A model generated the notes under the pieces. It was not told the origin of the DNA and ran no database searches. It worked only from the letters and a program-made list of their open reading frames with translations. A stretch of 64,000 nucleotides of DNA from Pedobacter nyackensis (GTDB lineage: Bacteria; Bacteroidota; Bacteroidia; Sphingobacteriales; Sphingobacteriaceae). Shown here one piece after another: positions 2,298 through 37,806 of the stretch (within the stretch, counting starts at the first letter, position 1; every line of letters starts with the position of its first letter). The position numbers and the translations under genes are program-made. The DNA lies in assembly GCF_900176505.1 (NCBI RefSeq), contig NZ_FWYB01000002.1, positions 25,237 to 89,236 on the forward strand, in the 5' to 3' direction.

Positions 2298-3872
2298 ATG
2301 AAATCCCCCATCTTCAGCTCAAGATACTTCATCGTTATAGGCCTTTTTATATTACTGTGTTTCACAGCGATAGGGATTTTCATTTCGTTAAAATTCAGTA
2401 AGCGGGCGGAGCAGATCAGTATAGAATTGGCTACAAAAAGCTATCAGCTGAAATCAAACATCATGCACAATGAGTTTAAGGATCTGATAAAAGGGATCAG
2501 CAACTCAGAAGCTATCCTGCCCCAGATCAACAATAAAGATGATTTCAGAAATCATGAGGGTACTTTGGAGGCGATCTTACTTAACCATTCAAAAGTAGAT
2601 AAAGGGTGGTACGCTATTGCCGGTAAAAACGATACTGTTTATAGGGCTATTCAAAAAATCGGAAATACTTATCATCATACTCCTATTTTAAAACACCAAA
2701 AAAATTGGATCCAAAGCCAGCTTGCACTAAAAGATACAATAGTAAACAGAGGAAAACTTGTTTCTGTAGCAGATACCATGCATTGGCTGGTTGGCTCAAA
2801 ACATCAACTTGCAGATTCTACAATATTAATGTTCGGTCTGGACATCAACCTCAAACAACTTCAGTATTATTTAAGGGATGTAGATGCTTATGGTATGGCC
2901 TACCCTTTCATAGTAGACGAGGATGGCTATTATGTGACCAATCCTGAGGAAAAGTTGATTGGAACAAAAATACCTTCCCCAGTAAATCCCTTATCTGGGA
3001 AGATCTTCCTACGCGATAGCCTCAGCAGCTATGAAATGGTATTTTCTTCCTATCTCGAACTCCCCGTAATACGTTACTATACTCCCTTGAATATTTCCGG
3101 AATGAGATGGACTATGGTAATAGATACCCTGGTATTATCGGTAGATGAGGATGTAAAAGCAATTGAGAAATATTTGATGTTTATGTTCGCTACAACGGCC
3201 TTGGTGATCCTGTTGTTGATTGCCTGGGCACAGGCTAAATGGCAAAAGGAATTTGCTGAAAAACAAGCGTTGAGTCTTGTTGCTGAACGTCAGCAAAAAG
3301 ACAATGCGTTGCTTCAGCTCAATACGCTTAAGGAAAAGGTGAACCCACATTTCTTATTCAACTCGTTAAGCTCTTTAAATGCATTAATAGAGAAGGACCC
3401 GGAACTGGCACAATCATTTGTTGTAAAATTATCCCGGGTTTACCGATATGTGCTTGAGTCGTACCCCAATGGTCTGGCCACTGTGGCCGAAGAACTTCGC
3501 TTTGCAAATGAATACTTCTTCCTGTTGAGAATAAGATTTGGTGATGCGCTGGAGCCTTTAGACATACAGGTGTCTGAAGCACATTTACAGGCTTTTATTC
3601 CATTCATGAGTCTGCAAACACTAATTGAAAATGCAGTGAAACACAATGTGCTTTCCAAAATGATGCCGCTTAAAATCAGCATAAAAAGTGAAGATGACTA
3701 TATTGTAACCAGCAATAACCTCCAGTTACGCAATGATGTAAAGGATTCGGGAAAGCAAGGACTAAGCTACCTTCAAAGTACTTATGCATATTTTGGTTCG
3801 AAACAATTTAGCTATGGTGAAGAGGGAGATGTTTACAAAGTTTATCTACCTCTGTTAAAGGCTACTGAATAA
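2298..3872 (+). CDS. LytS-type sensor histidine kinase with periplasmic Cache-like domain
   Basis: This is a membrane-bound histidine kinase of the His_kinase/LytS family. There is a transmembrane segment at about 11-32, a periplasmic part of about 260 residues, a second transmembrane segment at about 292-312, a short coiled coil, and then the family box N-P-H-F-L-F-N-S-L with phospho-acceptor His351. The N box L-I-E-N-A-V-K-H-N follows, and the end of the ATPase domain is short, as is usual for LytS. Within the sensor part, 'FIVDEDGYYVTNPEEKLIG' looks like the membrane-proximal half of a Cache ligand-binding domain. Its natural partner, a LytTR regulator, is not adjacent but lies at 11445-12200, beyond a metalloprotease and a SusC/SusD pair. 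I infer that the kinase senses something that locus processes or imports. Confidence 0.9.
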   Translation: MKSPIFSSRYFIVIGLFILLCFTAIGIFISLKFSKRAEQISIELATKSYQLKSNIMHNEFKDLIKGISNSEAILPQINNKDDFRNHEGTLEAILLNHSKVDKGWYAIAGKNDTVYRAIQKIGNTYHHTPILKHQKNWIQSQLALKDTIVNRGKLVSVADTMHWLVGSKHQLADSTILMFGLDINLKQLQYYLRDVDAYGMAYPFIVDEDGYYVTNPEEKLIGTKIPSPVNPLSGKIFLRDSLSSYEMVFSSYLELPVIRYYTPLNISGMRWTMVIDTLVLSVDEDVKAIEKYLMFMFATTALVILLLIAWAQAKWQKEFAEKQALSLVAERQQKDNALLQLNTLKEKVNPHFLFNSLSSLNALIEKDPELAQSFVVKLSRVYRYVLESYPNGLATVAEELRFANEYFFLLRIRFGDALEPLDIQVSEAHLQAFIPFMSLQTLIENAVKHNVLSKMMPLKISIKSEDDYIVTSNNLQLRNDVKDSGKQGLSYLQSTYAYFGSKQFSYGEEGDVYKVYLPLLKATE

Positions 3873-3899
3873 GCGTAGTAAAAAACATTTAAGTTTAAC

Positions 3900-3913
3900 G
3901 ATGTTATAACATC
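3900..3913. promoter_or_regulatory. Perfect 14-bp palindrome upstream of the metalloprotease gene
   Basis: GATGTTATAACATC reads the same on both strands. It lies in the 147-base gap between the kinase stop and the metalloprotease start, 106 bases before the ATG. It could bind a dimeric regulator. No known site consensus is claimed; LytTR sites are normally direct repeats and not a palindrome of this form. Confidence 0.35.
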
Positions 3914-4019
3914 TAATTAACATTTTCTTCACTCCTTAAAACTGCGCCTTCACACTACTAAAGTGCCTGCTCACGCTGTATAGTTTCATAATACACAAAC
4001 ATTCAGGCATTTTAGAGTT

Positions 4020-6650
4020 ATGATTTTAAATAAGACTTCGCTTATAGCTTTATTTATTCTTATCTCAGCGATTAGTATAAATGCGCAAACTTCTAAAAAA
4101 CTTCCTAAAGTTGCAGCAAAAAAAGTCACTGTTAAAACGCCAAAGAAAGCAGAGCAGGATACGACTAAGAAAAACACTTTAAAGGATTATAAAAGCCTTT
4201 TAAAAAATGCAAAAACGCTTAATGGTGTTTTCAAAGTACATCAGGTAGAGACGGATTATTATTTTGAGATCCCCTTAAAACTGATGGATAAAGACTTTTT
4301 ATTAGTCAACAAAATATCTTCAGTGCCATTGGCCATTAACGAAGCCGGTGTAAACAAGGGAATGAATTACGAAAATAAAGTAATTCGTTTTCACCCTAAC
4401 AAACTAGCTAAAACGGTATGGGTAAAAACCATCGTTCCCCAGGTAGAATCGCCCGCAGGAGATGCAATTACCCAATCGGTAAAAGACAATTTCGTAGGTT
4501 CTGTAATTGAAACCTTTAAAATTGAAGCTTACTCACCTGACTCATCAGCTGTAGTCATCAAAGTAAATAAAGTATTTGATGGTACAGAGAAGAGCTTTAA
4601 CGATGTGTTTACCAACATTGGCTTAGGTACCAGTCCTAAAACCGCTTTATCTGGCATTGAGCACATGAAGAGCTTCCCTGGAAACGTAGTGGTACGCTCG
4701 TTATTAAGCACTTCGGTTACAGAGGGACAAAGTACAATCGCTATCAGCGTTGCGGTAACCACTAACCTATTGCTATTACCGGAAAAACCAATGAAGCCTC
4801 GCTTTTCAGATGCCAGAGTTGGCTATTTCACTACACCAAGATGGTATTTCTCAGATACACAGCAAAAACTGGAAACCAGAGAACTGATTACCAAATGGAA
4901 GCTGGAGCCAAAAGCAGCCGACAGAGCACGGTACCTGAAAGGTGAACTGGTAGAGCCGGAAAAACCAATCGTATATTATGTTGACCCATCTACCCCAAGA
5001 CAATGGGTACCTTATATTATTGAAGGGATAAAAGACTGGCAGGAAGCATTCGAAGCCGCAGGTTTTAAAAATGCTATTCAGGCGAAAGAGGTAACAGACA
5101 CTGCTGATTTTGACGGTGACGATGTTCGCTATTCGATGGTTACTTATGCTGCTTCTCCAAAATCAAACGCCATGGGGCCATCTGTTGTGGATCCACGTAC
5201 TGGAGAAATTCTGGAATCAGATGTAATCTGGTGGCACAATGTGATGACCTCTTTACAGTATTGGATGCGTGTACAAACAGGTGTTATTGATCCCGGAGCA
5301 AGAAAAAACAACTTTAGTGTAAAGCAAATGGGGCATGCTATCCGTTTTGTATCCTCACATGAAATAGGTCATACTTTAGGTCTCAAACACAATATGGGCG
5401 CTTCTGCAGCATACCCTGTAGATTCTCTACGTTCGAAGACTTATACAGCTAAAATGGGTGGCACAGCTCCTTCGATTATGGATTATGCCCGTTTTAACTA
5501 TGTGGCACAACCTGAAGATCAGGTAACCAACATCACCCCACAAATTGGCGTATACGATAAATATGCAATTGCATGGGGTTACAGATGGTTGGATACTGAA
5601 GATCCACGTAAAGAACTGGAAATCCAGAAAGAATGGATTAAAGCGCACCAACACGATCCTTTGTATCACTATGGTGAGCAGCAAAGCGGTTTAAATGTAG
5701 TAGATCCAAGATCACAATCAGAAGATCTGGGCGACAATTCGGTGAAAGCAAGTGAATATGGTTTAAAAAACCTGCAGCGTTTGGTTCCTCAGATTTTAGA
5801 CTGGGCAGCAGAACCGGGAGATTCTTACTATCAGGCAGGGAAACTTTATATGGCAACCGTATGGCAGTGGAACACCTATGCTGATCACGTGATGTCAAAC
5901 ATTGGTGGTTACTATCTGGAAAGCCCTGTAGCCGGAGATGGTAAAAAAACTTACACCCCGGTTCCTAAAGAAAAACAACAAGAAGCCTTGAACTACCTTA
6001 AAAGGGAATTGTTTAACCTTCCGCAATGGTTGTTTAATCCGGAGTTGTTATCAAGCACATTTGCGATTAAAGATACGCCGGTTGGTCCTTACGAATACGG
6101 TCCTTATAACTTAAAACGTGAGCAACAAGCATCCCTGATGTACAATTTAGTAAATGATGAGCGCTTATTAAGATTGCTGGAAATGGAATCGCTTCATGGG
6201 AAGGATAAAGTGTACACGGTTTCACAATTGTTGAAGGAGATTAGAGAAACGATATTTAAACAAACGGTAAGTGGCAAATCACTTACGTTGGATCAGCGCA
6301 TGACTCAACAGAACTATGTTGATGCATTATTGGTGAGTTCTGATAAACTGATGGAAAAAATAAACAAAAAAGCCATTAAGTCTTTAAATACTGTAAAAAA
6401 CAACTTACCTGAACTTTGTGATCTTACTCCTCGCGCTTTTCAAGAAAACGCTGCTGTTAGAGGCGATGAACTGAGAAATGTTTACGTAAATGCAATGACC
6501 AGGACTTCAGATGTAGCATCTGCTAAAAGAGGTGAACTATTGAAGATTCTAACCCTTTTAGAAAAAAATAAAACCCGTGCTGGTGAGGAAACTCAAAATC
6601 ATTACATGGATCTGATCTTAAGGATCCGCCAAAGCTTAAAAATCAATTAA
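4020..6650 (+). CDS. Secreted zinc metalloprotease (DUF5117/DUF4953 type, metzincin motif)
   Basis: This 876-residue exported protease is predicted to cleave proteins or peptides outside the cytoplasm. Residues 1-23 form a signal peptide ending in I-N-A-Q. A lysine-rich linker (25-55) leads to a DUF5118/DUF5117-like beta region, then the metzincin zinc site H-E-I-G-H-T-L-G-L-K-H with His447, Glu448, His451 and His457. The 'S-I-M-D-Y' stretch about 40 residues later supplies the methionine of a Met-turn. The C-terminal third is helical. Length and layout match the large Bacteroidota 'zinc-dependent metalloprotease' family. It is followed after 21 bases by susC and then susD on the same strand. 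I infer that it makes peptides for that transporter, or matures surface proteins; the substrate is not readable. Confidence 0.9.
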   Translation: MILNKTSLIALFILISAISINAQTSKKLPKVAAKKVTVKTPKKAEQDTTKKNTLKDYKSLLKNAKTLNGVFKVHQVETDYYFEIPLKLMDKDFLLVNKISSVPLAINEAGVNKGMNYENKVIRFHPNKLAKTVWVKTIVPQVESPAGDAITQSVKDNFVGSVIETFKIEAYSPDSSAVVIKVNKVFDGTEKSFNDVFTNIGLGTSPKTALSGIEHMKSFPGNVVVRSLLSTSVTEGQSTIAISVAVTTNLLLLPEKPMKPRFSDARVGYFTTPRWYFSDTQQKLETRELITKWKLEPKAADRARYLKGELVEPEKPIVYYVDPSTPRQWVPYIIEGIKDWQEAFEAAGFKNAIQAKEVTDTADFDGDDVRYSMVTYAASPKSNAMGPSVVDPRTGEILESDVIWWHNVMTSLQYWMRVQTGVIDPGARKNNFSVKQMGHAIRFVSSHEIGHTLGLKHNMGASAAYPVDSLRSKTYTAKMGGTAPSIMDYARFNYVAQPEDQVTNITPQIGVYDKYAIAWGYRWLDTEDPRKELEIQKEWIKAHQHDPLYHYGEQQSGLNVVDPRSQSEDLGDNSVKASEYGLKNLQRLVPQILDWAAEPGDSYYQAGKLYMATVWQWNTYADHVMSNIGGYYLESPVAGDGKKTYTPVPKEKQQEALNYLKRELFNLPQWLFNPELLSSTFAIKDTPVGPYEYGPYNLKREQQASLMYNLVNDERLLRLLEMESLHGKDKVYTVSQLLKEIRETIFKQTVSGKSLTLDQRMTQQNYVDALLVSSDKLMEKINKKAIKSLNTVKNNLPELCDLTPRAFQENAAVRGDELRNVYVNAMTRTSDVASAKRGELLKILTLLEKNKTRAGEETQNHYMDLILRIRQSLKIN

Positions 6651-6671
6651 ACTATCCATAATTTTGTAATA

Positions 6672-9600
6672 ATGAACAAATTACTACTTTTTCTTTTCCT
6701 GCTCTCGGTTGGCTTTAAAGGCTATACTCAGGAACAAACCACGGTTACCGGAACGGTGCTGTCGGCCGAAGACGGAAAACCCATTCCCGGAGCTTCGGTT
6801 TTCGTTGACAAATCTGGCATTGGCGAACAGTCGAGTCCAGGTGTAATACAAAATACCGTTATCGGAGCTATGACTGATGCTAACGGTCACTTTATCTTAA
6901 AAGTTCCTGCTAGAACTACTTATTTAAAAGTAAGTTATCTGGGGTATACTACCACAATGGTAGACATCACCAACAAAACCAAAATCACAGTTTCATTAAA
7001 AAACGACGATAAAGTATTAGGTGAGGTAATTGTAACTGGTTATGCAGACATTGCCAAGCGTAAAAACACGACTTCAGTAGCAAAATTAGATTACGAGAAG
7101 GTTCGCCAGAATGGTGTTGCTGGTGTTGATCAAATGCTGGAAGGGCAAATCGCAGGTGTATCTGTAGCTAACTTAAACGGTGGACCAGGTGCAGCTCCAA
7201 AAATCAAAATCCGTGGTACCGTTTCATTAAATGGAACACAAGATCCTCTATGGGTATTGGATGGTCTTCCTTTAGAAGGAACAAACTTGCCCAACAAACT
7301 TACTGATAAAGACAACATCGATCAGTTACGTAATTTGCCTATTGCCGGATTAAATCCTGATGATATTGCCGACATTACGATCCTTAAAGATGCGGCTGCA
7401 ACTGCCATTTATGGTGCGCGGGCAGCAAATGGTGTAATTGTAATTACAACCAAAAAAGGTAAAAAAGGTCCTATGGCAGTTAACTTTTCTGCAAATACTT
7501 TTATTTCAGATCGTCCGGACTTATCTAAGCTTAACCTGATGAACTCCAACCAAAAGGTAGATTTTGAATTAGGAATGGCTTCAAGACCAGATCTTATTTA
7601 CAGAGATAATCAAGGTTCTGTTGCCAGGATTTTGAATAAAAGCGGAGAACTGAGCAATTATAGAACTAATGGTTTTTCAGGCTTAACGGCAGGCACACAG
7701 GATGCAATCAATGCATTAAGAGGCAATAACACAAACTGGGCTAATGAATTATATCAAACCGCTCTAAACCAACAATACGGTTTAAGCTTATCTGGTGGTA
7801 GTGATCAGGCTAATTATTATTTTTCTTCAGGATATTATAACGAAAAAGGTACCACGATCGGAACCGGTATGGAACGTTATAACATTACCTTAAAAACAGA
7901 TTTCAACCTTAGTCAGAAGTTAAAAGCAGGTGTTGCAGTATTTGGGTCTAAAACAAATCGCAAGAATTACCTTACAGATCCCGATGGTTACACCAATGTA
8001 AGTACGTATTCAAGAAATGTAAACCCTTATCAAACGGTTAGAGATGCCAATGGCAATTATGCATATGACCTTGACATTTTGGGTACCGTAAATGGCGATG
8101 TTTACCTTCCGTACAATTTCCTGGAAGAACGTGCAAACACTCGTTATACGCTGGGTAATAAAAGTGTTAAAACTGTAATGGACCTAAATTATGAGATCAA
8201 TAGAGCCTTTAACATCCGTACAGAGTTAGGTTTACAGTTTGAAGATACCGGAGTTGAAAAATATGCAGGGCAGGAAAGTTACAATACCCGTAAACTGAGA
8301 CAAAGCAGTAGTTACTTTAATTCTGGGCTTGGTAAAACCGATTACTTCTTACCTCTTGGTGGTGTAATTACCAACCAGAACACTTCATTTTTCCAATACA
8401 ACTGGAAATCAATCCTGGAGTATAAAAAAGTATTTGCTGAAAACCATGAAGTTGAAGCCCTTGCAGGAACTGAGCTAAGAAGGACTTATAACGAAGACGT
8501 GCTGACCAGAGGTTTTGGTTTTAATGAACGTACTTTAACCAATCAGAACATTGTATTTCCAAATGCGGATTTTGCGAAGAATCCAAACTTCAATAGCTAT
8601 CAAAAAGGGAAACAGGAGAATGCCTATGCATCATTCTACGGTACTTTATCATACACTTACGACAGGAAATATACATTATATGGAAGTATCCGTTACGATG
8701 GATCAGATCTATTCGGTGTAGATCCTAAATACAGATATCTACCTATTTATTCCGTTTCGGGTGCATGGAATGCTAAGGAGGAAAAGTTTATCAAAGACAT
8801 CAACTGGATCTCTAACCTCCGTCTTCGTAGTTCTTACGGTATTCAAGGAAACATAGACAAAACTACTTCACCATTTGTGGTAGGTAATTATAGCAATGCA
8901 AATATTTTACCAGGAGGAAACCAACCTACCATTTCGGTAACCAGTCCTCCAAACAATAAACTTCGCTGGGAGAAAACATCAACTTTCAATGCAGGTTTAG
9001 ACCTAGGTTTATTTAACAATGTGGTACAGGTAACTTTTGACTATTACAACCGTTACAGTAAAGACCTAATCGGTACAGAGGCTTTACAATTGGAAAATGG
9101 ATTTGATTTTACCAATGCTAACTTTGCAAGGGTAAAAAACAAAGGCTTGGAATTAAGTATCTCTACCAGAAACATTCAAACAAACAATTTCCAGTGGTCA
9201 ACTGATTTCAACATTGCCCAGAATAAGAGTAAAGTCGTTCAGGAGAAAATTCGTCCGAATCAGCTGACTCCTTCAAGAGAAGGATTCCCTGTTGGGGCAA
9301 TATTTGTATTGAAAACTGCAGGATTAGATGCCAACGGTATTCCTCAATTTATGAAAGATGGTCAGGTAGTTTCTTTAGAGAATTTCTATAAGCTATATGA
9401 TCCATGGGCAGATTTCTTCCCTGGGGAATTAACCAGCACAGCATTATCTAATGAAGAATTTAGAAATCTATATACTTATGCAGGTGATATGGAACCTAAG
9501 TTTACTGGAGGTATTACCAACCGCTTACGTTATAACAACTTTGATTTCGCTGTAACAGCAACTTTTAACATCGGACAAACCGTATTGGCCAGACCACAAT

Positions 9601-10022
9601 ATAACCCTGCACAAGTGGATAGAGGAAGAAATTATTCTACTGATATTTTAAATGCATGGTCACCAACTAATGCTGGCAGCAACATGCCTGGTATTTTTGG
9701 GAAAGACAGCTTTGATGGTGAAAGATATATGGCTTACAACTGGCTAACAGGCTTTGATGCGAGTAATTCTTACAACAATCTGGATGTTTTCTCTAAAAAG
9801 ATAAGCTATATGCGTGTAAGCAGTATGCGTTTGGGATACTCACTTCCTGCAGCTATTGCTGGAAAAGTTAAAGCAAATACCTTAAGAGTAAGCATTGAAG
9901 CAAGAAATCCATTTGTAATCAGTACCGATTATAAAGGATATTTTGATCCTGAAACCTACGGTAATATTTATGCTCAACCGATATCAAGAAGTATTTCGAT
10001 TGGTTTAAATGCTACTTTTTAA
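6672..10022 (+). CDS. SusC/RagA-family TonB-linked outer membrane transporter
   Basis: This 1116-residue TonB-dependent barrel imports bulky nutrients with its SusD lid. A signal peptide (1-19) is followed by a carboxypeptidase-regulatory-like beta sandwich (about 24-112) with a small insertion near 'GIGEQSSPG', then a TonB-box-like E-V-I-V-T-G-Y near 118-124. The plug domain carries the family signatures 'DGLPLEG', 'ILKDAAATAIYGARAANGVI' (shared by SusC proteins) and 'ITTKKGKKG'. The rest is a barrel ending in aromatic 'LNATF'. It has no N-terminal STN domain, so it is probably not an ECF-sigma signalling receptor, unlike the SusC at 32218-35604. It sits between the metalloprotease (21 bases) and SusD (11 bases). 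The substrate is unknown; the protease next door suggests peptides. Confidence 0.95.
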   Translation: MNKLLLFLFLLSVGFKGYTQEQTTVTGTVLSAEDGKPIPGASVFVDKSGIGEQSSPGVIQNTVIGAMTDANGHFILKVPARTTYLKVSYLGYTTTMVDITNKTKITVSLKNDDKVLGEVIVTGYADIAKRKNTTSVAKLDYEKVRQNGVAGVDQMLEGQIAGVSVANLNGGPGAAPKIKIRGTVSLNGTQDPLWVLDGLPLEGTNLPNKLTDKDNIDQLRNLPIAGLNPDDIADITILKDAAATAIYGARAANGVIVITTKKGKKGPMAVNFSANTFISDRPDLSKLNLMNSNQKVDFELGMASRPDLIYRDNQGSVARILNKSGELSNYRTNGFSGLTAGTQDAINALRGNNTNWANELYQTALNQQYGLSLSGGSDQANYYFSSGYYNEKGTTIGTGMERYNITLKTDFNLSQKLKAGVAVFGSKTNRKNYLTDPDGYTNVSTYSRNVNPYQTVRDANGNYAYDLDILGTVNGDVYLPYNFLEERANTRYTLGNKSVKTVMDLNYEINRAFNIRTELGLQFEDTGVEKYAGQESYNTRKLRQSSSYFNSGLGKTDYFLPLGGVITNQNTSFFQYNWKSILEYKKVFAENHEVEALAGTELRRTYNEDVLTRGFGFNERTLTNQNIVFPNADFAKNPNFNSYQKGKQENAYASFYGTLSYTYDRKYTLYGSIRYDGSDLFGVDPKYRYLPIYSVSGAWNAKEEKFIKDINWISNLRLRSSYGIQGNIDKTTSPFVVGNYSNANILPGGNQPTISVTSPPNNKLRWEKTSTFNAGLDLGLFNNVVQVTFDYYNRYSKDLIGTEALQLENGFDFTNANFARVKNKGLELSISTRNIQTNNFQWSTDFNIAQNKSKVVQEKIRPNQLTPSREGFPVGAIFVLKTAGLDANGIPQFMKDGQVVSLENFYKLYDPWADFFPGELTSTALSNEEFRNLYTYAGDMEPKFTGGITNRLRYNNFDFAVTATFNIGQTVLARPQYNPAQVDRGRNYSTDILNAWSPTNAGSNMPGIFGKDSFDGERYMAYNWLTGFDASNSYNNLDVFSKKISYMRVSSMRLGYSLPAAIAGKVKANTLRVSIEARNPFVISTDYKGYFDPETYGNIYAQPISRSISIGLNATF

Positions 10023-10033
10023 TTAATAACGAG

Positions 10034-11356
10034 ATGAAGAAATTAATCATATTAAGCGCTGTACTACTTTCATTAAGTTTAAGCAGCTGTAAAAAATATT
10101 TAGATATAGAGCCTGTGGGAAGAGTAATTCCTACCACTGCAGAGGATTTCAGAGCATTATTGAATGCAGGGTATGCGGGCTTTGCCCAGCATAAATCTTT
10201 ATTAGCCGCACGTACTGACGAATTGGTTTTGAACGAATTCAATGATGATTTCCCATTGTATCGTGATATTTATAAATGGAATGACATCAATCCTGATGTC
10301 TTGTCTATTCAATTCCATTATATTGATTTTTACAGGACCATTTTCAACGCCAATACAGTAATCTCTGATGTTGAAGCAAGAGCAGGTGTAAATACTGAAA
10401 CTGCACAACTTAAGGGTGAAGCTTATTTGTTACGTGCCTACAGTCATTTCGAGTTGCTTAACTTATATGCGAAGCCTTATGATAAAAACACAGCAGCAAC
10501 AGATCGTGGTATTCCTCTTTCTTTAAAAGTAGATCTGGAACACATTTATACACCAGCAACAGTAGCTGTGGTATATGACCAGGTACTTGCTGATATTGCA
10601 GAAGGGCAAAAACTATTAAATGTTAAAACTTTTGAGGCTGGTAAAAACTACCGCTTTACTACACGTGCTGCTTTTGCTTTGTTGGCAAGGGTACGCGAAT
10701 TCAGAGGAGAGTATGCTGAAGCTTTAAAAGCAAGTAAGGATGCATTAGCTTTAGACAATCAATTGGAAGATTTAAATGCCGCTGGCGCCGTACTTCCGAA
10801 CAACTATTTAGCTAAAGAAAACATCATGTCGATGGAATCACCATTTAACAATGGTATCAACAGACTGGCCAGAATTTCAGCACACCTGATTGGCCTATAT
10901 AATCAGACCGACGATCTTCGCTTTGCGAAATACTTCAGCAAATCCGGCAGTAACTATGTTGCGCTAAAAGGAGCTTCAGATGCAAATAAGATTTCCTTCC
11001 GCAATGGAGAGTTATATCTGATACAGGCTGAGGCAGCTTTACAAACCAATGATCAGGCTTTGGCAGTTCAGAGTTTATTGGCTTTAAAAGCGAAACGATT
11101 AACTCCTGCGTACTATACAACTGAAGCAACCAGAATTTCAGCACTGGATAAAAACGCCCTTTTACAGGAAATCCTGGTAGAAAGAGAAAGAGAGTTGGCG
11201 CTGGAAGGTCAGCGTTGGTATGATTTAAGACGTTATGGTCAACCACAAATTACGCACACTGTAGGTGGAGAGGCTTTCATACTTCAAAAAAACGATCCAA
11301 GATATACGATTCGTTTCCCTAAAGATGCCATTGCAAATAACCCTAACTTGCAATAG
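10034..11356 (+). CDS. SusD/RagB-family outer membrane lipoprotein
   Basis: This is the surface lid and binding lipoprotein paired with the SusC upstream. The N-terminus is a lipoprotein signal with L-S-S-C, followed by 'KKYLDIEPVGR', the usual SusD opening. Tetratricopeptide-like helices carry 'AYLLRAYSHFELLNLYAKPY' (the recognisable SusD helix pair), and near the C-terminus come 'ERERELALEGQRWYDLRRYG' and a terminal 'FPKDAIANNPNLQ'. At 440 residues it is on the short side for SusD proteins, so the variable ligand-facing loops are probably small. The spacing of 11 bases after susC indicates one transcript. A strong terminator follows within about 25 bases, so the response-regulator gene downstream is likely a separate transcript. 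Confidence 0.94.
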   Translation: MKKLIILSAVLLSLSLSSCKKYLDIEPVGRVIPTTAEDFRALLNAGYAGFAQHKSLLAARTDELVLNEFNDDFPLYRDIYKWNDINPDVLSIQFHYIDFYRTIFNANTVISDVEARAGVNTETAQLKGEAYLLRAYSHFELLNLYAKPYDKNTAATDRGIPLSLKVDLEHIYTPATVAVVYDQVLADIAEGQKLLNVKTFEAGKNYRFTTRAAFALLARVREFRGEYAEALKASKDALALDNQLEDLNAAGAVLPNNYLAKENIMSMESPFNNGINRLARISAHLIGLYNQTDDLRFAKYFSKSGSNYVALKGASDANKISFRNGELYLIQAEAALQTNDQALAVQSLLALKAKRLTPAYYTTEATRISALDKNALLQEILVERERELALEGQRWYDLRRYGQPQITHTVGGEAFILQKNDPRYTIRFPKDAIANNPNLQ

Positions 11357-11378
11357 TCATTAACGAAAACAGGAATTT

Positions 11379-11418
11379 AAACTCCGGTCTGTATTTTCTC
11401 AGACCGGAGTTTTTTTTT
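11379..11418 (+). terminator. Strong terminator after susD
   Basis: AAACTCCGGTCTG at 11379-11391 pairs perfectly with CAGACCGGAGTTT at 11400-11412, and the stem runs into a long T tract. It ends the protease/susC/susD transcript 26 bases before the response regulator starts. Confidence 0.92.
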
Positions 11419-11444
11419 ACTTTTACGCTCAAGCATAAAAATTA

Positions 11445-12200
11445 ATGAGGGTATTAATTATTGAGGATGAAGAACTGGCAGCTGATACGCTGGAGAAAAT
11501 GCTCGTGCACATTAATCCCAACATACAGGTACTGGCCATTTTAGGCACAGTTGAGGTGGCTGTAAACTGGCTAAGTAAGAACACTGCTGATTTGTTGTTC
11601 ATGGACATCCATCTTGGTGACGGGGAGAGTTTTGAGATCTTTCAACAAGTGATTGTCGACAGCCCTGTTATTTTCACTACCGCTTACGATCAATACACCT
11701 TAAAGGCTTTTAAAAATCAGGGTATTGATTACCTGTTGAAACCCTTTGATGAGGATGATGTACGGACTGCACTTACCAAGCTTAACACCATTAGAAAAGC
11801 TTCAGAAATGCCCCTGCAACAAGTACTGCATAGGTCAGGAACGCCTGCCGGCAAATTACGTAACCGCTTCATGGTAAAAATGGGTCAGCTCATTAAAACC
11901 GTTCAGGCAGAAGACGTGGCTTATTTCATGGCAGAGGACAAATACCTTTTCCTGATTACCAAGGATAAGCAAAATTACATCATTGAAGAGACAATTAGCA
12001 GTCTTGAACCCCAGCTCGACCAGTTCGTTTTTTTTCGCATCAACCGCAAGTTTATCATCAACATCAGCGCCATCAAGGAGATGTATAAGCTCTCAAGAAA
12101 CAGGGTAAGGATTGTGCTTATCCCCGCTCCTGCCGATGGAATTGAAGTCATCGTTAGTGAAGAACGTGCCGAAGCATTTAAAAACTGGCTTGATCAATAG
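11445..12200 (+). CDS. LytTR-family response regulator
   Basis: This 251-residue regulator has a receiver domain (1-120) with acidic pocket E7-D8 and phospho-acceptor Asp54 in F-M-D-I-H-L-G-D. It also carries the 'FTTAYDQYTLKAF' switch region and the conserved Lys in 'DYLLKPF'. The LytTR DNA-binding domain (about 140-250) shows 'VAYFMAEDKYLFLITKDKQ' and 'FFRINRKFIINI', the standard R-x-N-R-x-x-x-I-N signature. These regulators pair with LytS-type kinases; the only one in the window is at 2298-3872, on the other side of the metalloprotease/SusCD block. It lies immediately after the susD terminator, so it may have its own promoter in 11413-11444. Target genes are not shown by sequence. Confidence 0.93.
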   Translation: MRVLIIEDEELAADTLEKMLVHINPNIQVLAILGTVEVAVNWLSKNTADLLFMDIHLGDGESFEIFQQVIVDSPVIFTTAYDQYTLKAFKNQGIDYLLKPFDEDDVRTALTKLNTIRKASEMPLQQVLHRSGTPAGKLRNRFMVKMGQLIKTVQAEDVAYFMAEDKYLFLITKDKQNYIIEETISSLEPQLDQFVFFRINRKFIINISAIKEMYKLSRNRVRIVLIPAPADGIEVIVSEERAEAFKNWLDQ

Positions 12201-12528: not shown

Positions 12529-14298
12529 TTATTTTTCAACACCGATAGAGTTAAACTGTAAATCATATAATCTTTTATAATAACCGTTTAATTTCAGCAA
12601 TTCCTGGTGGGTCCCCATTTCCATAATCTCCCCTTTATCTAATACGAGTATTTTATCGGCTTTTTGTATGGTCGACAAGCGGTGGGCGATTACAATTGAG
12701 GTACGGCCCTGCATCAAGTTCTCTATGGCCCTTTGAATCAACATCTCAGTTTCTGTATCCACTGAAGAAGTGGCCTCGTCCAACACTAAGATAGAAGGGT
12801 TGTATACCAGCGCCCGAATAAATGAAATCAACTGGGCCTGACCTGCCGACAGTGTTGCTCCTCTTTCCATCACGTTGTACTGATAGCCTCCAGGCAAGCG
12901 CATGATAAAATCATGTGCCCCAACTTTTCTGGCTGCATCAACTACCTCCCCCATACTGATATCAGGATTATTTAGCGTGATGTTGTTGAAAATTGTATCT
13001 GAAAACAGGAAGACATCCTGCAAAACAGTAGCAATGTTGCTACGCAGATGATTGAGTTCGTACTCCTGAATTTTTACTCCATCAATCTTAATTTCTCCTT
13101 TTTGGATTTCGTAGAACCTGTTCAGGATATTGATGGTAGAAGATTTTCCGGCTCCTGTAGCGCCTACAAGTGCAATGGTTTTACCAGCAGGTACCTGAAA
13201 TGAAATGTCCCTAAGCACATAATTATCCTCATTATAAGCAAACCAAACCTTATCGAAAGATATAGCCCCATGCATCCTTTCAGGCACGAACGAACCTTTA
13301 TTAGCCGTTATTTCATCTGTATCCAATACTTTAAAAACACGCTCTGCTCCTACCATCCCCATTTGCAGCGTATTGAACTTATCAGCAAGCTCCCGGATTG
13401 GCCTGAACAACATGTTGATGTATAAGATAAACTCGGCAATGGTACCAGGGGTTACCGCCAATGGCTTTGCCAGAATACTTCTGGAACCATACCAAACCAA
13501 TAAACCTAATGACATGGCAGAAATGATCTCTACAACCGGAAAGAAAATCGAGTAATACCAGTTGGAACGGATATTGGCATCGCGGTAGCGCGCATTGATC
13601 TTTACAAACTTCTTATACTCCTGCTCTTCCCTTGCAAAATACTGAATGATAGAAACCCCTGAAATGTGCTCCTGCAAATAAGTATTAAGGTTAGAAACCT
13701 CTGTACGGATTTCCTGGAAGGCAGATTTAATGGCTTTCTGGAAAATAGAAGTAGCTATAATAAGCAAAGGCATAGGTAATAACACCACGAGGGTAAGCGC
13801 CCAATCCCTGTAAACCATTACTCCAATGATTACAATCACCATTAGAATATCACCAATGATAACGATTAAGCCTTCAGAGAAAATCTCGGCAATGGTTTCC
13901 AGGTCAGATACCGTACGGGTGATCAACTGGCCGATCGGCGTATTATCGAAATACTTTAATCTCAGCTTGGTAATGTGATTAAACACATTGATCCTCAAAT
14001 CCCGGATTGCGGATTGTCCCAGCGTGTTTGTCAATAAGGTATGACTAAATTGTATACCTGCCTGCAGCACCAGCAGTACCAACATCAGGATGGTCATGGT
14101 TAATAAACCATTGTAATGACCGGTCATGATGTAATTATCCAGCGTATGCTGAATCAGATATGGTCTGGCCGGAGCAATTAGAGCCAGTAACACGGTTAGA
14201 ACGATAGACAGGATGAAAATTTTACGGTAAGGCCTTACATATTGAAAAACTCTTTTCAATAAACTTACATTAAATGCATCACCTGCTATTTTAGACAT
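12529..14298 (-). CDS. ABC exporter, fused permease and ATPase (MsbA/MdlB type)
   Basis: This 589-residue half-transporter works as a dimer in the inner membrane. Six transmembrane helices occupy about residues 25-300. The nucleotide-binding domain has Walker A G-A-T-G-A-G-K-S near 379-386, a signature loop 'LSAGQAQ' (Ser-Ala-Gly-Gln in place of the usual LSGGQ), Walker B 'ILVLDEATSSVD' and the H-loop 'VIAHRLSTI'. The best family match is the multidrug/lipid exporter group of Bacteroidota; no substrate can be read. It begins 2 bases after the truA stop, so both are on one transcript with truA first. The LSAGQ variant is common in this subgroup. Confidence 0.93.
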   Translation of the reverse strand: MSKIAGDAFNVSLLKRVFQYVRPYRKIFILSIVLTVLLALIAPARPYLIQHTLDNYIMTGHYNGLLTMTILMLVLLVLQAGIQFSHTLLTNTLGQSAIRDLRINVFNHITKLRLKYFDNTPIGQLITRTVSDLETIAEIFSEGLIVIIGDILMVIVIIGVMVYRDWALTLVVLLPMPLLIIATSIFQKAIKSAFQEIRTEVSNLNTYLQEHISGVSIIQYFAREEQEYKKFVKINARYRDANIRSNWYYSIFFPVVEIISAMSLGLLVWYGSRSILAKPLAVTPGTIAEFILYINMLFRPIRELADKFNTLQMGMVGAERVFKVLDTDEITANKGSFVPERMHGAISFDKVWFAYNEDNYVLRDISFQVPAGKTIALVGATGAGKSSTINILNRFYEIQKGEIKIDGVKIQEYELNHLRSNIATVLQDVFLFSDTIFNNITLNNPDISMGEVVDAARKVGAHDFIMRLPGGYQYNVMERGATLSAGQAQLISFIRALVYNPSILVLDEATSSVDTETEMLIQRAIENLMQGRTSIVIAHRLSTIQKADKILVLDKGEIMEMGTHQELLKLNGYYKRLYDLQFNSIGVEK

Positions 14299-14300
14299 AT

Positions 14301-15041
14301 CTATTTTACAAAAGGATAAATTACATTAACTAAATACAAACCACATGCAGGAACAGACTGCCCTGCATTGCATCTGTTTTTACTTTCGACGATTTCTTTA
14401 AACTGTGCAAGGCTTAATTCCTTTTTACCTACTCTGATGAGTGTACCCACAATTGCACGTACCATGTTTCTTAAAAACCTATCAGCCCTGATGGTAAACT
14501 TTAAACCTTCGTCCTCTTTTACGAAAAAGGCTTCCATAACATTACAGTTATTGGTAAAGGTCTGGGTGTTCGACTTACTGAAGCAGGAAAAATCGGTATA
14601 AGTTAAAAGCAACTTTGCAGCTTCGTTCATGGCCTCCATATCTAAATCGCCTTTATATAACCAGGAACGATCCAGTTTAAAGGGATCTTTGTGAAAATGA
14701 AGATGGTAATGATAAGCGCGTTCGGTAGCTCCGAAACGTGCATGAGCCTCATTATCTACTTCAAAAACACGCTTTACTGCGATCTGGTAGGGCAATAAAG
14801 AATTGATACCGGTAACAGATTTTAAAGGATCGATTGCTGTTTGCAAGTCAAAATGCGCATAAAACTGCGTGGCATGCACGCCACTATCTGTCCGCCCGCA
14901 GCCCAATGAGCTAATCGGCTGACGGAAATAAACAGATAAAGCTTTATCCAGGCATTCCTGCACAGTGGAGGCGTTGGGCTGTATTTGCCAGCCATGATAA
15001 GCGGTGCCGTTGTACGACAATTCGATAAAATACCGTTGCAT
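14301..15041 (-). CDS. truA: tRNA pseudouridine(38-40) synthase TruA
   Basis: TruA converts uridines 38-40 in the tRNA anticodon arm to pseudouridine. The catalytic aspartate lies in the family motif G-R-T-D-S-G-V-H-A, preceded by 'YNGTAYHGWQIQPNASTVQE', the standard TruA N-terminus. The C-terminal half has 'IRADRFLRNMVRAIVGTLIRVG', also diagnostic. The 246-residue length is normal. The longest frame begins at TTG (15047); the ATG at 15041 gives M-Q-R-Y-F and matches family N-termini. It heads a two-gene transcript with the ABC exporter. A minus-strand TAATTTTG box (15060-15053) lies just upstream. Confidence 0.96.
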   Translation of the reverse strand: MQRYFIELSYNGTAYHGWQIQPNASTVQECLDKALSVYFRQPISSLGCGRTDSGVHATQFYAHFDLQTAIDPLKSVTGINSLLPYQIAVKRVFEVDNEAHARFGATERAYHYHLHFHKDPFKLDRSWLYKGDLDMEAMNEAAKLLLTYTDFSCFSKSNTQTFTNNCNVMEAFFVKEDEGLKFTIRADRFLRNMVRAIVGTLIRVGKKELSLAQFKEIVESKNRCNAGQSVPACGLYLVNVIYPFVK

Positions 15042-15081
15042 GTTCAATGGTACAAAATTATCTTTTTAATCGGATATCGGA

Positions 15082-30617: not shown

Positions 30618-32177
30618 CTAATTTCTTAAAATCCACATAGTTTGATTGGTATCATCGCTACCTCCATATTGACTTTGAACTGCAGCATCCATATTTACCG
30701 AATTATAGCTCAGCTCATTTGATGGGTAAAGCCAACGCAATGGTAATTTAGAAGATGGGGTATTTAAATTGGTTGAGGCATTTAAGGTAAATACCGGATA
30801 GCCAGTTCTACGATTTTCAAACCATGATCCATATTTAACACCTTGTAAAAAGTTTGCCAGATATTTTTGTGTGATGATCTGTGCAATCTGCTGTTCATTT
30901 GTTCCAGCCAACACTACCGGAGCTGTGCCAGGGAATGCGTTAATATAAGTTGCATCCATCTTCATATTGTGATGGTAATCTGCCAGATCCGGCGTATAAG
31001 CTGCCACAAAATTCATGGAATTGACGATCCCCGCAGCATAATAAGTCTGCGCCGGAACACCTGTAATCCAACCCCTGACAGCTGCTTCTGCCAGGATAAA
31101 CTGCTGATCCCAGTAACTGAATACACTAACTGGCTCGGCATTTACCAATTGTACATAACGGTTGTTCAAATCTGCATAATCCTTACCTACCCGCCTGGTT
31201 TGTAAAGCAGAAAAAGCATCTGAGGGCTCAACACCAGGATAGGCATTAAAATCAGATTCAGACACGCCCGCAGTTATTTTTACCGAAGATGGCTTGGCAT
31301 AATAAAACAAACGTCTGTCATTCATAGCTTTTAGCGGTCCCAGCAAAGTGTTGCTCAGCATGGTATAGTTCGACTTTACGAATGAATTACTTGAACCGGC
31401 CGGAACATCAGACCATGGGTAATTCTGACCGGCCGTATTGTTGTAAACTAATGCAAAATTATCCTTATAATCACGCATCAGAGGACGATTAGTCACAATA
31501 TCTTTAAACCGCTCAACAACTTTCAGGTCTGCATCAGCTGTTTTCTTATACAGATTGATCAGCACATGAAGCTGAAAACTATTGGTTAACCTCCTCCAGT
31601 TGTCGGTCTTTCCACCATAGATCGGATCACCTTCAAAGTTTACTCCTTCAGCAAACAACTGATTGGCTTGATCCAGTTCATTCAAAACACCTAAAAACAC
31701 GGCTTTCTGTGTATCATATTTAGGCTTCAGCACACTACTTTCTCCTTTCACCGCATCAGAATAAGGGATGTCCCCAACCTGCATGGTAGTCATAAAAAAC
31801 TGCCAGGCCCGCATAAAGTGCCCCAATGCCTGGTAGGATTTCCTTAAGCCTTCACTTGTAGCATTAGCTTCCATAGGAGTAATATTCCTGAGCAAGGTAA
31901 TGCGGTTAAAATCTGTACGGCCTAATCTATTGTATTGGAAACCTTCCTGTCCCTCGCCCCAGGTAATATACTTTCCTAATAAAAACGGTTGCATAAAACC
32001 TTTGGTTGAGCTGATATCCGAACGTGTAATATTTAAGATCATACCACTGGCCAGCATAGCCGAGCTGACCTGCGTCGCATCATTAGGATTAGTGTTGATC
32101 TCTTCAAACTTATTACAGCCGCTGCTCATTACCACCACCGTCAGCAACATATATTTTAAAAAATTATTTTTCATCAT
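30618..32177 (-). CDS. SusD-like lipoprotein (SusD_RagB family 2)
   Basis: This surface binding lipoprotein (519 residues from the ATG) has a signal with the lipobox S-S-G-C near residue 20, followed by 'NKFEEINTNPNDATQV', the recognisable opening of SusD-like_2 proteins. Later blocks such as 'QALGHFMRAWQFFMTTMQVGDIPYSDA' and the C-terminal 'YPSNELSYNSVN' match the same family. The longest frame starts at 32228 and would place 17 extra residues before the lipoprotein signal; the tandem ATG at 32177/32174 is chosen. It pairs with the SusC gene 40 bases upstream. No glycosidase or protease is encoded beside it, so the ligand is not suggested by neighbours. Confidence 0.92.
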   Translation of the reverse strand: MMKNNFLKYMLLTVVVMSSGCNKFEEINTNPNDATQVSSAMLASGMILNITRSDISSTKGFMQPFLLGKYITWGEGQEGFQYNRLGRTDFNRITLLRNITPMEANATSEGLRKSYQALGHFMRAWQFFMTTMQVGDIPYSDAVKGESSVLKPKYDTQKAVFLGVLNELDQANQLFAEGVNFEGDPIYGGKTDNWRRLTNSFQLHVLINLYKKTADADLKVVERFKDIVTNRPLMRDYKDNFALVYNNTAGQNYPWSDVPAGSSNSFVKSNYTMLSNTLLGPLKAMNDRRLFYYAKPSSVKITAGVSESDFNAYPGVEPSDAFSALQTRRVGKDYADLNNRYVQLVNAEPVSVFSYWDQQFILAEAAVRGWITGVPAQTYYAAGIVNSMNFVAAYTPDLADYHHNMKMDATYINAFPGTAPVVLAGTNEQQIAQIITQKYLANFLQGVKYGSWFENRRTGYPVFTLNASTNLNTPSSKLPLRWLYPSNELSYNSVNMDAAVQSQYGGSDDTNQTMWILRN

Positions 32178-32217
32178 CTTACGATTTACTTGTGAAATGT
32201 CTATAACCATATCATTA

Positions 32218-35200
32218 TTAAAAACCAATTCTGAAGTTAAAACCTACCATACGCGAAGACGGCGAATTCAGATCTTCATTATCCTCATCAGGATCTGAAA
32301 ACTTAAAATTGGTGAGCAATAAAAGGTTTTGTCCGGTAACAGTGAAAGAAGCAGTTTTTGCCCCCAACTTTTTGGCCAGATTAGCAGGTATATTATACCC
32401 CAAAGAAACCTCACGCAGCTTAACAAAAGTTTCATTCTGTATGCCCATATCGCCACCTCTGAAGGTCTGAGCGAAATCCTGGTAGCCCACCTGTACATCA
32501 TTTGCAGCATATTGACGGGTATCGCTGGTGATGTTACCATACTTATCGTACTTAGCTTCACCGGAAATCACTTTCACCCCTTTTCCTACATAATTGTTCA
32601 ATCCATTTACAACCTGGTCATAACGATATTGGTTATCCGATTCAGGGTTGGTTCCGGTATCCCACATTTTATCGTACATATAATTGTACATTAAACCACC
32701 TATTCGACCATCTATATTGATACCCAGGTTCCAGTTTTTATACCTGAAATTATTGATAAAACCAAAGCTGAAATCAGGTTCTCCATATCCATACTTTTTG
32801 CTGTAATCGCTTTCCACGGGAGAGCCATTATTGTAGATGACGTTCCCGTTAGGATCGGTAAGCCAATATGAACTGGTGTAAGTATCCAATCGTTCTCCTT
32901 TCCTTACCCAAAGATTGTCTGGCGAATAAATAGGATCCAGCTCATTATAATACCGGTGCTGGTTTGACCAATTCACAATGGCATTCCATTCGAAATCTTT
33001 GTTCCTGATTATAGGACCGTCCAATGTAATTTCCAACCCTTTCCTGTTATAGGTTTCTAAAGTATTGACCAGTATGGTTGAAAAACCTGATGATCCCGGA
33101 ATAACCGGGTTTACCTGCCTGTTATAATAGTATTTATCGAAATAAGCTACATCAAAGTGCAAACGCCTTCCAAACAAATAGCCCGCAGCACCTAATTCCC
33201 ATGTGCGTTGTGTACTTGGAAGTAACCCCTCAGCAATTAGTTTTGAAGGATAACTGGCAGCATTCAGAGTATTCCATGCGGCAGTGGTAGTACCATAATA
33301 TTTATTGATTGCAAATGGATCAAAAGCATTTTTAAATAGGGTCCAGGAACCTCTCAATTTAAACATATCCACCATTGAAGGTAGTTTAACCAATTCAGAC
33401 ACAACAATACTGGATCCCAGTGAAGGATAGAAGAAAGATCTTGAAGCTTTAGGCTGACTGGAATTCCAATCGTTTCTTCCTGTTGCATCAAAGAATACAG
33501 CGTCATTCCAGCCTATGGATGCACGACCATAAAGACTATTAATTTGTTGCGCCCAATTATCCCTGGCATCTGAAAACGTATCATAAATAATGTTGACCGG
33601 TTCAACAGAACCTTTTAAAGAAAAGTACCTTGGTGAGATCAGTCCGCCTTTAGTTGTAGCGATAACATTATCCTTATTATAATAAAACAAAGTCCCACCG
33701 GCAAGTCCGCTTACCGACCATTTGCTTATTTTTTTGTTATAGGTCAGGATCAGATCATTATTTGTAGACAAACCCGTTCGATCAATCGCCTGGTACATAC
33801 CTCTTGCATCCCATCCTCCTCTTGTAGAAAAAATATTGGCTCTAGGATTCTGTTTGGTAATCCGGTCGTTAAAATTGTCGTAGCCCAAACGCAGCATCAG
33901 GTTAAAGTCGCTGTTGAATTTATAATTAGCTGTTACGCTGGCATTCAACTTGTTCTTGGTCTCACCGTTCAACTTTTCGTTTGCAATTAAGTATGGGTTA
34001 TCATACCAATTGGTATACATCCAATTCTGCGTTTTATCAGGTACCACCCAGTAATCTTTATAATCCCGGATATCATATTCTGTACCGGTCCACATGATCA
34101 ACTGGTATAAATAACCCTGATCACCGTATCCACTACCCCACATTTGAGGGGTAGAGCCCCTACTGATTCCAAAGCGACCTTCTACTTTAAACTGATCGTT
34201 GATCTTTATTTCCCCACCAGAAGTGAAGTTCAAAATATTCAACTTCTGATTTGGAAACTGACCTTTCTGGAAAATATGGTTTAAGCCTACTCTGAAACTT
34301 CCATTTTCACTGCTTTGTGCCAGCGCGACATTATTATTGGTAACGATACCTGTGTTCATAAAATTCTTCAGGTTATCCTTTCCTACAGATACCAATGGTC
34401 TGCCTTCTTCAAATTGCTTGGTTTCAGGATTCCAATCCCTGGCTGTATTTCCGGCATTTAACCTTGGGCCCCAAACATAATCGTTATCAATTTGTCCATT
34501 CTGACCACGTCCATACGAACTTTGCACTTCTGGAATAGCCAGATAGCCCAATTGAAACATGGTATTACTGTTCACGTCTACAGAGAAGCCATTGCTGGCA
34601 GCTCCTTTTTTTGTGGTGATCATTAACACCCCACCTTTTGCACGTGAACCATACAATGAAGAAGCTGTTGACCCTTTCAATAAATCCATGCTTTCAATGT
34701 CATCCGTTGGCACATCCCGCAAAGTCATATTTTCATAAGGAACACCATCAATCACGAGCAGCGCACTTTCTCCCCGAAGCTCAATAGCTGGGCGGGCATT
34801 AAATTCTGTTGAATTTTTGATTACCAATCCTGCAACCCTTCCTGTTAATGAAGTACCCAAATCTACACCTTTAACCGTTTGTAATTCTTTTCCTGCAACT
34901 TTTTGCACTGCATAGCCCAGGGCCTTTTCAGATCTCTTGACGCCCAATGCAGTTACCACGACTTCAGAAAGATCCTGTAATTCTGCTTCAAGCACAATAT
35001 TCAAAGTACTGGTAGCAGCAGTTACGCTTACTTCCTTCGATACATAGCCTAAAAATTTTACCACCAATACATCCCCAGCTTTTGCATCAATAGCAAACTC
35101 GCCAGATGGGCCGGAAGAAGTACCTTTACCCGAACCTTTAACCAGGATAGATGCACCTGGCAGGGGGTTGCCCTCTTTATCCACCACTTTCCCCTTAATA

Positions 35201-35604: not shown

Positions 35605-35664
35605 ATTTTTGAATGTTTTGGTTTATCCATTAATTATTTAACAAGGTATTTTCTGCGATCGACC

Positions 35665-35726
35665 GGAACTATGTTCCATTCTAATTTGGATGGACAAACC
35701 GGCCCCTGTGTCACCAGGGTCCGGTT
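35665..35726. other. Two inverted repeats in the FecR-SusC intergenic region
   Basis: In the 217-base gap, GGAAC-TAT-GTTCC (35665-35677) is a perfect short inverted repeat. AACCGG/CCGGTT enclosing CCCTG/CAGGG (35697-35726) forms a second, GC-rich hairpin. On the minus strand only a short T stretch follows, so this may be a weak terminator for fecR or an attenuator before susC. A near-match TACCTTG promoter box lies at 35649-35643. Confidence 0.5.
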
Positions 35727-35821
35727 CTTTCCTTCAAAAAGATCTGTACGGGTTTGTATTTATCTTTTCATATGCCGTTTGGTTTAAGTTTATATTTGGG
35801 TTGTTTGGTAATACTGCTCTT

Positions 35822-36964: not shown

Positions 36965-37034
36965 ACGCAACAAGATGCTATTACATCCATCTAAGGTTAT
37001 GACGAATAGCTTAAATCAAAGTGGTAGATTTATT

Positions 37035-37637: not shown

Positions 37638-37806
37638 AATAATTATTTCCCCATTAAAGTTAAGCAAACATCCCTAACTAAAGTTAATTAAAATTCAACT
37701 CAATGTTAACTAATTATTCGATCATCCCCTATGCCTAAAATAAAAAACCAAACTTAATGAAGATCATTTCTTCTTTTTACAGCGTTATATAATTAGATTC
37801 GTATCT

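Follow-up and report, generated by a model that had tools for sequence, protein, structure and literature searches.

The 64,000-nucleotide stretch of Pedobacter nyackensis DNA analysed here (the window, a 64-kb piece of the 6.08-Mb home genome) contains a locus in which a sensor histidine kinase (K) and a LytTR response regulator (R) enclose the genes of an exported metzincin (M), a SusC importer (C) and a SusD lipoprotein (D). Comparison with related loci indicates that K and R most probably constitute a dedicated two-component pair that switches on M-C-D, in a layout that reads K, operator, M-C-D, terminator, R. This arrangement, a protease-SusCD operon wrapped by a LytTR pair and provided with a conserved candidate operator, occurs in Bacteroidota as diverse as Pedobacter, Flavobacterium, Odoribacter and Alistipes.

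The five open reading frames that had been predicted to lie on one strand are all found on the plus strand. K (2298-3872) combines a double-Cache-like sensor with a kinase domain of the Pfam family His_kinase (PF06580, E 2e-22), and R (11445-12200) combines a receiver domain (Response_reg, PF00072) with a LytTR DNA-binding domain (PF04397); the expected phosphorylation residues, His351 in K and Asp54 in R, are both present. The phospho-acceptor histidine and the ATP-binding N box are kept among 47 K proteins, in which P350, H351, F352, E444, N445 and K448 are invariant. M (4020-6650) has the domains DUF5118, DUF5117 and DUF4953, the motif HEIGHTLGLKH and, judged by eye, a signal peptide. In 13/13 M proteins, H447, E448, H451, G454, H457 and M487 of the metzincin motif and the Met-turn are invariant, M487 being assigned to the Met-turn by our own reading; no solved relative of M was found by sequence at E<=0.01. 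C (6672-10022) is a SusC/RagA TonB-dependent importer that passes TIGR04056 with 660 bits versus a cut-off of 368, and Pfam reported no STN domain in it at E<=0.01, as had been anticipated. The adjoining D (10034-11356) is a SusD/RagB surface lipoprotein that matches two SusD families and has a lipobox by eye, so that the two genes qualify as a SusCD pair. No Pfam match to a carbohydrate-active enzyme was found among the five genes and the two open reading frames upstream, and the locus therefore does not count as a polysaccharide utilisation locus.

The layout is old and has been kept by selection. The gene-order comparison across relatives that the original prediction had proposed was performed with two sets of loci. 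The family set was drawn from 399 genomes, the window's own included, with ortholog thresholds of E<=1e-50 for K, E<=1e-60 for R and E<=1e-180 for M; the 66 loci fetched from it are those of all 65 non-self genomes with an M ortholog and of one further congener. The named set comprises the best 80 of 585 confirmed relatives in a search with an M alignment. The sets overlap in 12 loci with identical spacers, which are probably the same records, and their counts are not additive. In the family loci, K-M-C-D had one strand and one order in 66/66, and R followed D in 65/66, the contig ending at that point in the sole remaining locus (L043). Among the 80 named loci, K-M-C-D-R was found in 67, R-K-M-C-D in six and M-C-D lacking both K and R at these positions in four; one locus (L110) had K-M-C-D without R and two (L083, L146) were incomplete. 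In the loci compared, kinase and regulator are thus not missing from most relatives, and the regulator that stands beside K in the six loci is not a different LytTR protein but belongs to the same R lineage. One locus (L079) has, in addition to its own R, an extra kinase/LytTR pair immediately upstream of K in the opposite orientation.

The order was maintained at 51-59% identity of M in several orders of Bacteroidota, and the named loci with K-M-C-D-R stem from Pedobacter, Desertivirga, Sphingobacterium, Chitinophaga, Niastella, Flavobacterium, Myroides, Chryseobacterium, Sinomicrobium, Labilibaculum, Marinifilum, Odoribacter, Butyricimonas, Rikenellaceae and Alistipes. Orthologs of M, R and K were found in 66, 62 and 38 of the 399 family genomes, respectively, and those of K and R exceeded their thresholds only where an M ortholog was also present. 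The cluster is by no means universal: only 66/399 family genomes and 12/296 phylum genomes have an M ortholog at E<=1e-180. Seven of 35 congeners had strong matches, with identities of 43-63% for K, 69-84% for M and 65-80% for R; in the other 28, all matches listed were much weaker, K being partial, M having at most about 46% identity and R <=42%.

It had also been stated that kinase and regulator genes of this class are usually adjacent, and this is true of the home genome, which encodes nine PF06580 kinases and twelve LytTR domains: for six of the nine kinases, a LytTR domain lies 618-809 bp away (domain to domain), and for two others the distances are 1.9 and 2.4 kb. The distance between K and R, measured in the same way, is 8.3 kb, and the pair is thus an outlier at home, because the eight other PF06580 kinases have a LytTR domain within 2.4 kb. 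A midpoint-rooted tree of 80 R rows, several long branches of which were flagged by the program, bears on the origin of this separation. The regulators of the six R-K-M-C-D loci form one supported group (100/99) beside Flavobacteriia with K-M-C-D-R (the row L090_19994 is the second R of its locus, mislabelled K-M-C-D-R by the score cut-off), and the split order is found in Bacteroidales and Sphingobacteriales. Because the R-K-M-C-D regulators group only once and both of these orders have the split arrangement, the latter is probably ancestral, and the simplest reading of the tree would be that R moved beside K a single time. The regulators of two Chitinophagaceae loci (L068 and L081, from Chitinophaga tropicalis and Niastella) are placed among the Pedobacter rows, and their M proteins are 71% identical to that of the window. 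This suggests transfer, which means that the cluster may move between families and that these two loci are not independent evidence.

The spacer between K and M (3873-4019), which had been put forward as the place for regulator binding, holds a conserved repeat array that is likely to be the operator of R. In the window, 8-nt direct repeats follow one another on the plus strand with a 21-bp period and 13 nt between the cores: TTCACTCC at 3928-3935, TTCACACT at 3949-3956 (21 bp after the first) and a degenerate third copy, CTCACGCT, at 3970-3977, read from the sequence and again 21 bp further on. An excerpt of PMC4847170 gives 9-11 nt as the length of the repeats bound by LytTR regulators and 11-13 nt as the distance between them; the cores found here are 8 nt long, and their separation falls within that range.

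A motif-free test, run after the motif had been seen, asked at each of 36 lags for an 8-nt stretch of which at least 7/8 letters are repeated, in a region of 200 nt that begins 30 nt before the stop codon of K. The resulting counts are descriptions and not probabilities, because related sequences are not independent. Lag 21 leads in clade A (the window and L001-L029) with 22/30 loci versus 2.5 in shuffled sequences, followed by lags 13 and 42 with 11/30, and in clade B (L030-L066) with 31/37 versus 2.5, followed by lag 42, twice the period, with 16/37. In the named loci, apart from sixteen that mostly belong to Sphingobacteriaceae and are represented in clades A and B, a repeat was present at lag 21 in 18/19 Flavobacterium loci (lag 11 ties), 15/15 of Chryseobacterium, 9/10 of Bacteroidales, 6/6 with R-K-M-C-D, 6/6 of Myroides and one metagenome-assembled genome (lag 11 ties), 2/2 of Sinomicrobium (lags 11 and 33 tie) and 2/2 of Chitinophagaceae with K and R (lag 13 ties). 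In seven Flavobacterium loci, the best lag-21 window lies in an A-rich stretch, with the repeat pair visible alongside. Lag 21 is therefore top or joint top of the 36 lags in every tested group that has K, and it was found in 0/4 loci with neither K nor R, for which 200 nt around the start of the M frame were searched.

Pattern searches gave a concordant picture. A tight form of the repeat pair had 66 matches in 2.88 Mb of locus DNA, all of them inside the K-M spacer, versus 0 for the reversed pattern, and it was absent from all fetched DNA of the four loci that have neither K nor R in those places. The loose pair, in which each repeat matches at least 6/8 letters at a spacing of 21-22, was present in 101 of the 130 distinct K-bearing loci versus 1.2 in mononucleotide shuffles, and 66 of the 130 contain the tight pair. 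Searched as a loose IUPAC pattern, the pair has two matches in the home genome, one of which is the K-M site, so that the site is rare, yet the pattern alone is no proof, because the reversed control gives three; the strict exact pattern fails in the home genome because its second repeat is TTCACACT. Besides the home genome, 11 genomes of the phylum set have M, and in 10 of them the exact site lies just upstream of M, preceded by K in nine; in the eleventh (G656, 48% identity), no site, K or R was found in the 16.5 kb fetched. Sites were thus present in 10/11 genomes with M versus 3/284 without (Fisher p 2.6e-15), after microsatellites and one degenerate site (G663) had been removed by eye from an unsorted count of 12/284.

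The repeats are placed as would be expected of an activator site. When a -7 box was defined as a match of at least 5/6 to TANNTTTG and its offset was measured from the first nucleotide of the last tight repeat, 44 of the 66 loci with a tight pair had the box at 38 nt and 6 had it at 39 nt, versus 7 at the best other offset (66 nt). In these relatives, about 30 nt separate the end of the last repeat from the -7 box downstream, and the -7-like element of the window, CATTTTAG (4008-4015, plus strand), lies 38 nt from repeat 3. A Bacteroides example in an extract of PMC6193735 has the order repeat, 11 bp, TGTA-19 bp-TATCTTTG; with the same 19-bp spacing to the -33 element, the repeats would lie immediately upstream of -33, a position typical of activators.

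At the other end of the operon, the terminator that had been predicted before R was recovered as a 13-pair stem-loop followed by T residues in the D-R gap (11379-11412, plus strand). A hairpin with a T-run is found in this gap in 62/66 loci (the window and 65 fetched ones), and the controls after C, M and K gave 1/67, 0/67 and 11/67, respectively. The named loci have it in 52/67, with controls of 4/80 after M and 2/78 after C, and the pooled count is 99/117, duplicates, very short gaps and gaps over 320 nt being left out. Downstream of the hairpin, a -7-like box is present in 52/99 loci versus 30 in shuffled tails, a modest excess which suggests that R probably has its own promoter behind the terminator; in the window, the element TACTTTTA (11418-11425, plus strand, 5/6 to TANNTTTG) is suggestive only. 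Such an arrangement would keep the level of R steady while M-C-D is switched. For some M and R genes, a possible leaderless start was noticed.

The description of K as a LytS-type kinase holds for the kinase domain but not for the sensor. LytS proper carries a 5TM-5TMR_LYT membrane sensor, to which Pfam found no match in K at E<=0.01, and an AlphaFold2 model based on 47 K proteins (predicted local distance difference test score, pLDDT, 84.8) has two Cache-like modules between two long, putatively membrane-crossing helices. A Foldseek search with this sensor model retrieved double-Cache chemoreceptors and histidine-kinase sensors, including PctA with amino acids (5e-8), which is also matched by sequence (E 0.002). 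The membrane-proximal module is conserved among K proteins (Y202, G210, P216, G222, S250, L253). In the distal module, few residues are conserved, and no conserved amino-acid-binding motif was seen there among the K proteins; this variability suggests that the ligand of K may differ between lineages. A firm claim of amino-acid sensing was set aside on account of the few conserved distal residues, despite the resemblance to PctA, and it is retained as a possibility. For the importer, the closest solved SusCD pair by far is 8ypt/8ypu (about 1e-273 for C and 2e-92 for D), and RagA follows far behind among the solved relatives of C (E 2.5e-72); a model of D built without an alignment had a pLDDT of 34 and was set aside.

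From these observations, the following course of events can be proposed. The double Cache of K would sense a small periplasmic ligand, upon which K would phosphorylate R on Asp54. R would bind the conserved 21-bp-spaced direct repeats between K and M and recruit RNA polymerase to the promoter whose -7 box, in relatives, lies 38 nt from the last repeat. The exported metzincin would then cut protein, and SusCD would import the cleavage products, which may include the ligand of K, while the terminator before R would keep R outside the induced operon. With respect to the original prediction of a peptide- or protein-sensing uptake system, the affiliation of K and R with M-C-D is upheld by the gene order; the signal may be a peptide or protein, and SusCD may import peptides.

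It should be noted that several observations weigh against this proposal. The protease in the operon is the sole basis for the import of peptides. The -7 element of the window is weak, with a match of 4/6 to TANNTTTG. Even the loose TTCACTCC pair is missing from 29/130 distinct loci with K, namely 23 loci of the Sphingobacterium group and L001, L017, L030, L072, L122 and L142. Many of the Sphingobacterium-group loci have the repeat altered to forms like CGTGTTCA with the 21-bp period retained, and their R proteins are 43-48% identical to that of the window. The K of this group aligns to the window's K only from about residue 130-220 on, and because the N-terminal part fails to align, its sensor may differ. 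The exact pair occurs in 22 of the 296 phylum genomes, 12 of which have no M ortholog, and eight of these 12 are also matched by the reversed control, because the hits are 7-bp microsatellites. One genome (G629; L153, L166) has kept M and the repeat site without K in the fetched DNA. Finally, at L149:113-3529, a site of the form TTCACTCC-N13-CTCACTCC precedes a putative fasciclin-domain gene (identified by eye), which is followed by a related K-R pair whose kinase seems to have no periplasmic sensor. The latter site is a hint that the repeat accompanies regulators of this LytTR branch and is possibly a second use of the same type of operator.

The missing loose pairs and the site without K in G629 could also mean that the 21-bp repeats are the site of a different DNA-binding protein or form a structural element of the promoter. 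This is improbable, given that their spacing matches that of LytTR sites, that in the loci sampled they are present together with K and R and absent from the few without them, and that the repeat sequence has drifted in the Sphingobacterium group, where R has drifted as well. If the repeats are indeed the operator of R, R might nevertheless repress or act dually, with M-C-D being on when K is inactive, because the sign of regulation is not fixed by the sequence and such pairs can work either way. A classical repressor site, however, more often overlaps the promoter, whereas in the relatives the last repeat lies at a fixed distance outside the core promoter, and we therefore regard a repressing or dual R as rather unlikely.

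A further view is that K and R control a different regulon or react to envelope stress, the intervening genes being bystanders that have stayed in place by vertical inheritance. R appears to be transcribed separately, beyond a terminator, and in one instance (L149) the exact repeat adjoins a different gene and another K-R pair, as would fit such a view. It is nevertheless very improbable in the light of an order that is kept at 51-59% identity of M in several orders, of repeats that lie directly before M, of four loci without K and R that show neither the lag-21 repeat near M nor the tight pair, and of a loose pair that has only two matches in the home genome including this one, though the reversed control has three. 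Thus, activation of M-C-D by a dedicated K-R pair is preferred.

If K and R activate M-C-D, the system might even form a closed proteolysis-sensing loop, in which the metzincin generates a defined peptide or amino-acid product, SusCD carries it into the periplasm, K recognizes it, and R amplifies the production of protease and importer. We regard this extension as tentative and rather doubtful, but if true, it would define a widespread LytTR class of SusCD control in Bacteroidota, distinct from control by sigma/FecR and by hybrid two-component systems, in which the protease generates the signal. Irrespective of the loop, the locus offers a predicted regulator, a binding site and a set of targets that are testable in a tractable genus. 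It is an entry point to the regulation of protein scavenging in Bacteroidota, and the repeat can serve as a search key for further members.

Several single loci and neighbouring genes deserve mention. An ABC-transporter gene and truA adjoin R in the window (12529-15047), and the same pair lies on the opposite side of the cluster, upstream of K, in 10/80 named loci, all from Flavobacterium. Among the family loci, which have short flanks, truA was seen in 2/67 (window included) and an ABC match of at least 55% downstream of R in 4/67; as an argument for a conserved context, this neighbourhood was dropped. A paralog of M in the home genome (36% identical; L164:217-4730, contig C14) is oriented towards a separate kinase/LytTR pair encoded on the other strand. 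In G629, an 8-kb open reading frame occupies the place of K (L166:3505-11772), and C-D is inverted downstream. Another genome (G621) contains three identical copies of TTCACTCC-N13-TTCACTCC away from M (L148:3501, L148:13157, L147:3501), which resemble a repeated element. In three Sphingobacterium-group loci (L044, L051, L057), SusC was matched piecewise or is shortened, and these genes are possible pseudogenes. Chitinophaga hostae (L143:8692-18333) has M-C-D without K and R in place, and by eye a sigma factor upstream and FecR downstream, possibly a swap of regulators.

With regard to the literature, the available text of a paper on coevolution in Flavobacterium johnsoniae (PMC10197871) mentions mutated LytTR and kinase genes with neighbouring locus tags and was set aside without a sequence check. 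A second F. johnsoniae paper, on the beta-barrel assembly machinery (PMC12611786), deals with a main starch utilisation system (SUS) complex with SusE, the stem 'metallo' being absent from its main text, and was likewise set aside; the locus treated in the accessible part of PMC7440613 (Flavobacterium) is a different one. No description of the present locus was found in the open-access papers searched, which is weak evidence of novelty, since most subscription papers lie outside this set. As far as these searches go, the parts and their families are known, and their combination with the operator and the split gene order is apparently undescribed.

Loci with SusCD are mostly regarded as glycan systems under the control of sigma/FecR, SusR or hybrid two-component systems. 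The present locus resembles the SusCD/RagAB systems in that C passes TIGR04056, D matches SusD families and RagA is a solved relative, and it differs from them in having a protease gene in place of glycan enzymes and LytTR two-component genes around it. The window itself contains a second SusCD locus on the minus strand (30618-37667), with a sigma factor, FecR, an STN-bearing SusC and SusD, and the contrast that had been drawn between the two is correct: both combine SusC and SusD with a signalling pair, but the SusC of the extracytoplasmic function (ECF) sigma/FecR locus has an STN domain and adjoins FecR and the sigma factor, neither of which is found in K-M-C-D-R. It is plausible that two-component control would take over here the role that sigma/FecR has there.

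The genes ypdA and ypdB of E. coli are adjacent, and their target, yhjX, is located elsewhere. YpdA and YpdB belong to the same two protein classes as K and R, but here the target operon lies between kinase and regulator, and the sensor is a double Cache. At the level of DNA, the excerpt of PMC4847170 describes a direct repeat of GGCATTTCAT in the yhjX promoter as the binding site of YpdB, and in the oligonucleotide given there this repeat also has a 21-bp period. The LytTR regulatory systems (LRS) of Streptococcus and the LRS-like operons of Bacteroides, as portrayed in the extract of PMC6193735, share with the present locus the LytTR domain and direct repeats upstream of the promoter; an LRS pairs the LytTR regulator with an inhibitory membrane protein, whereas here a histidine kinase and a receiver domain are found.

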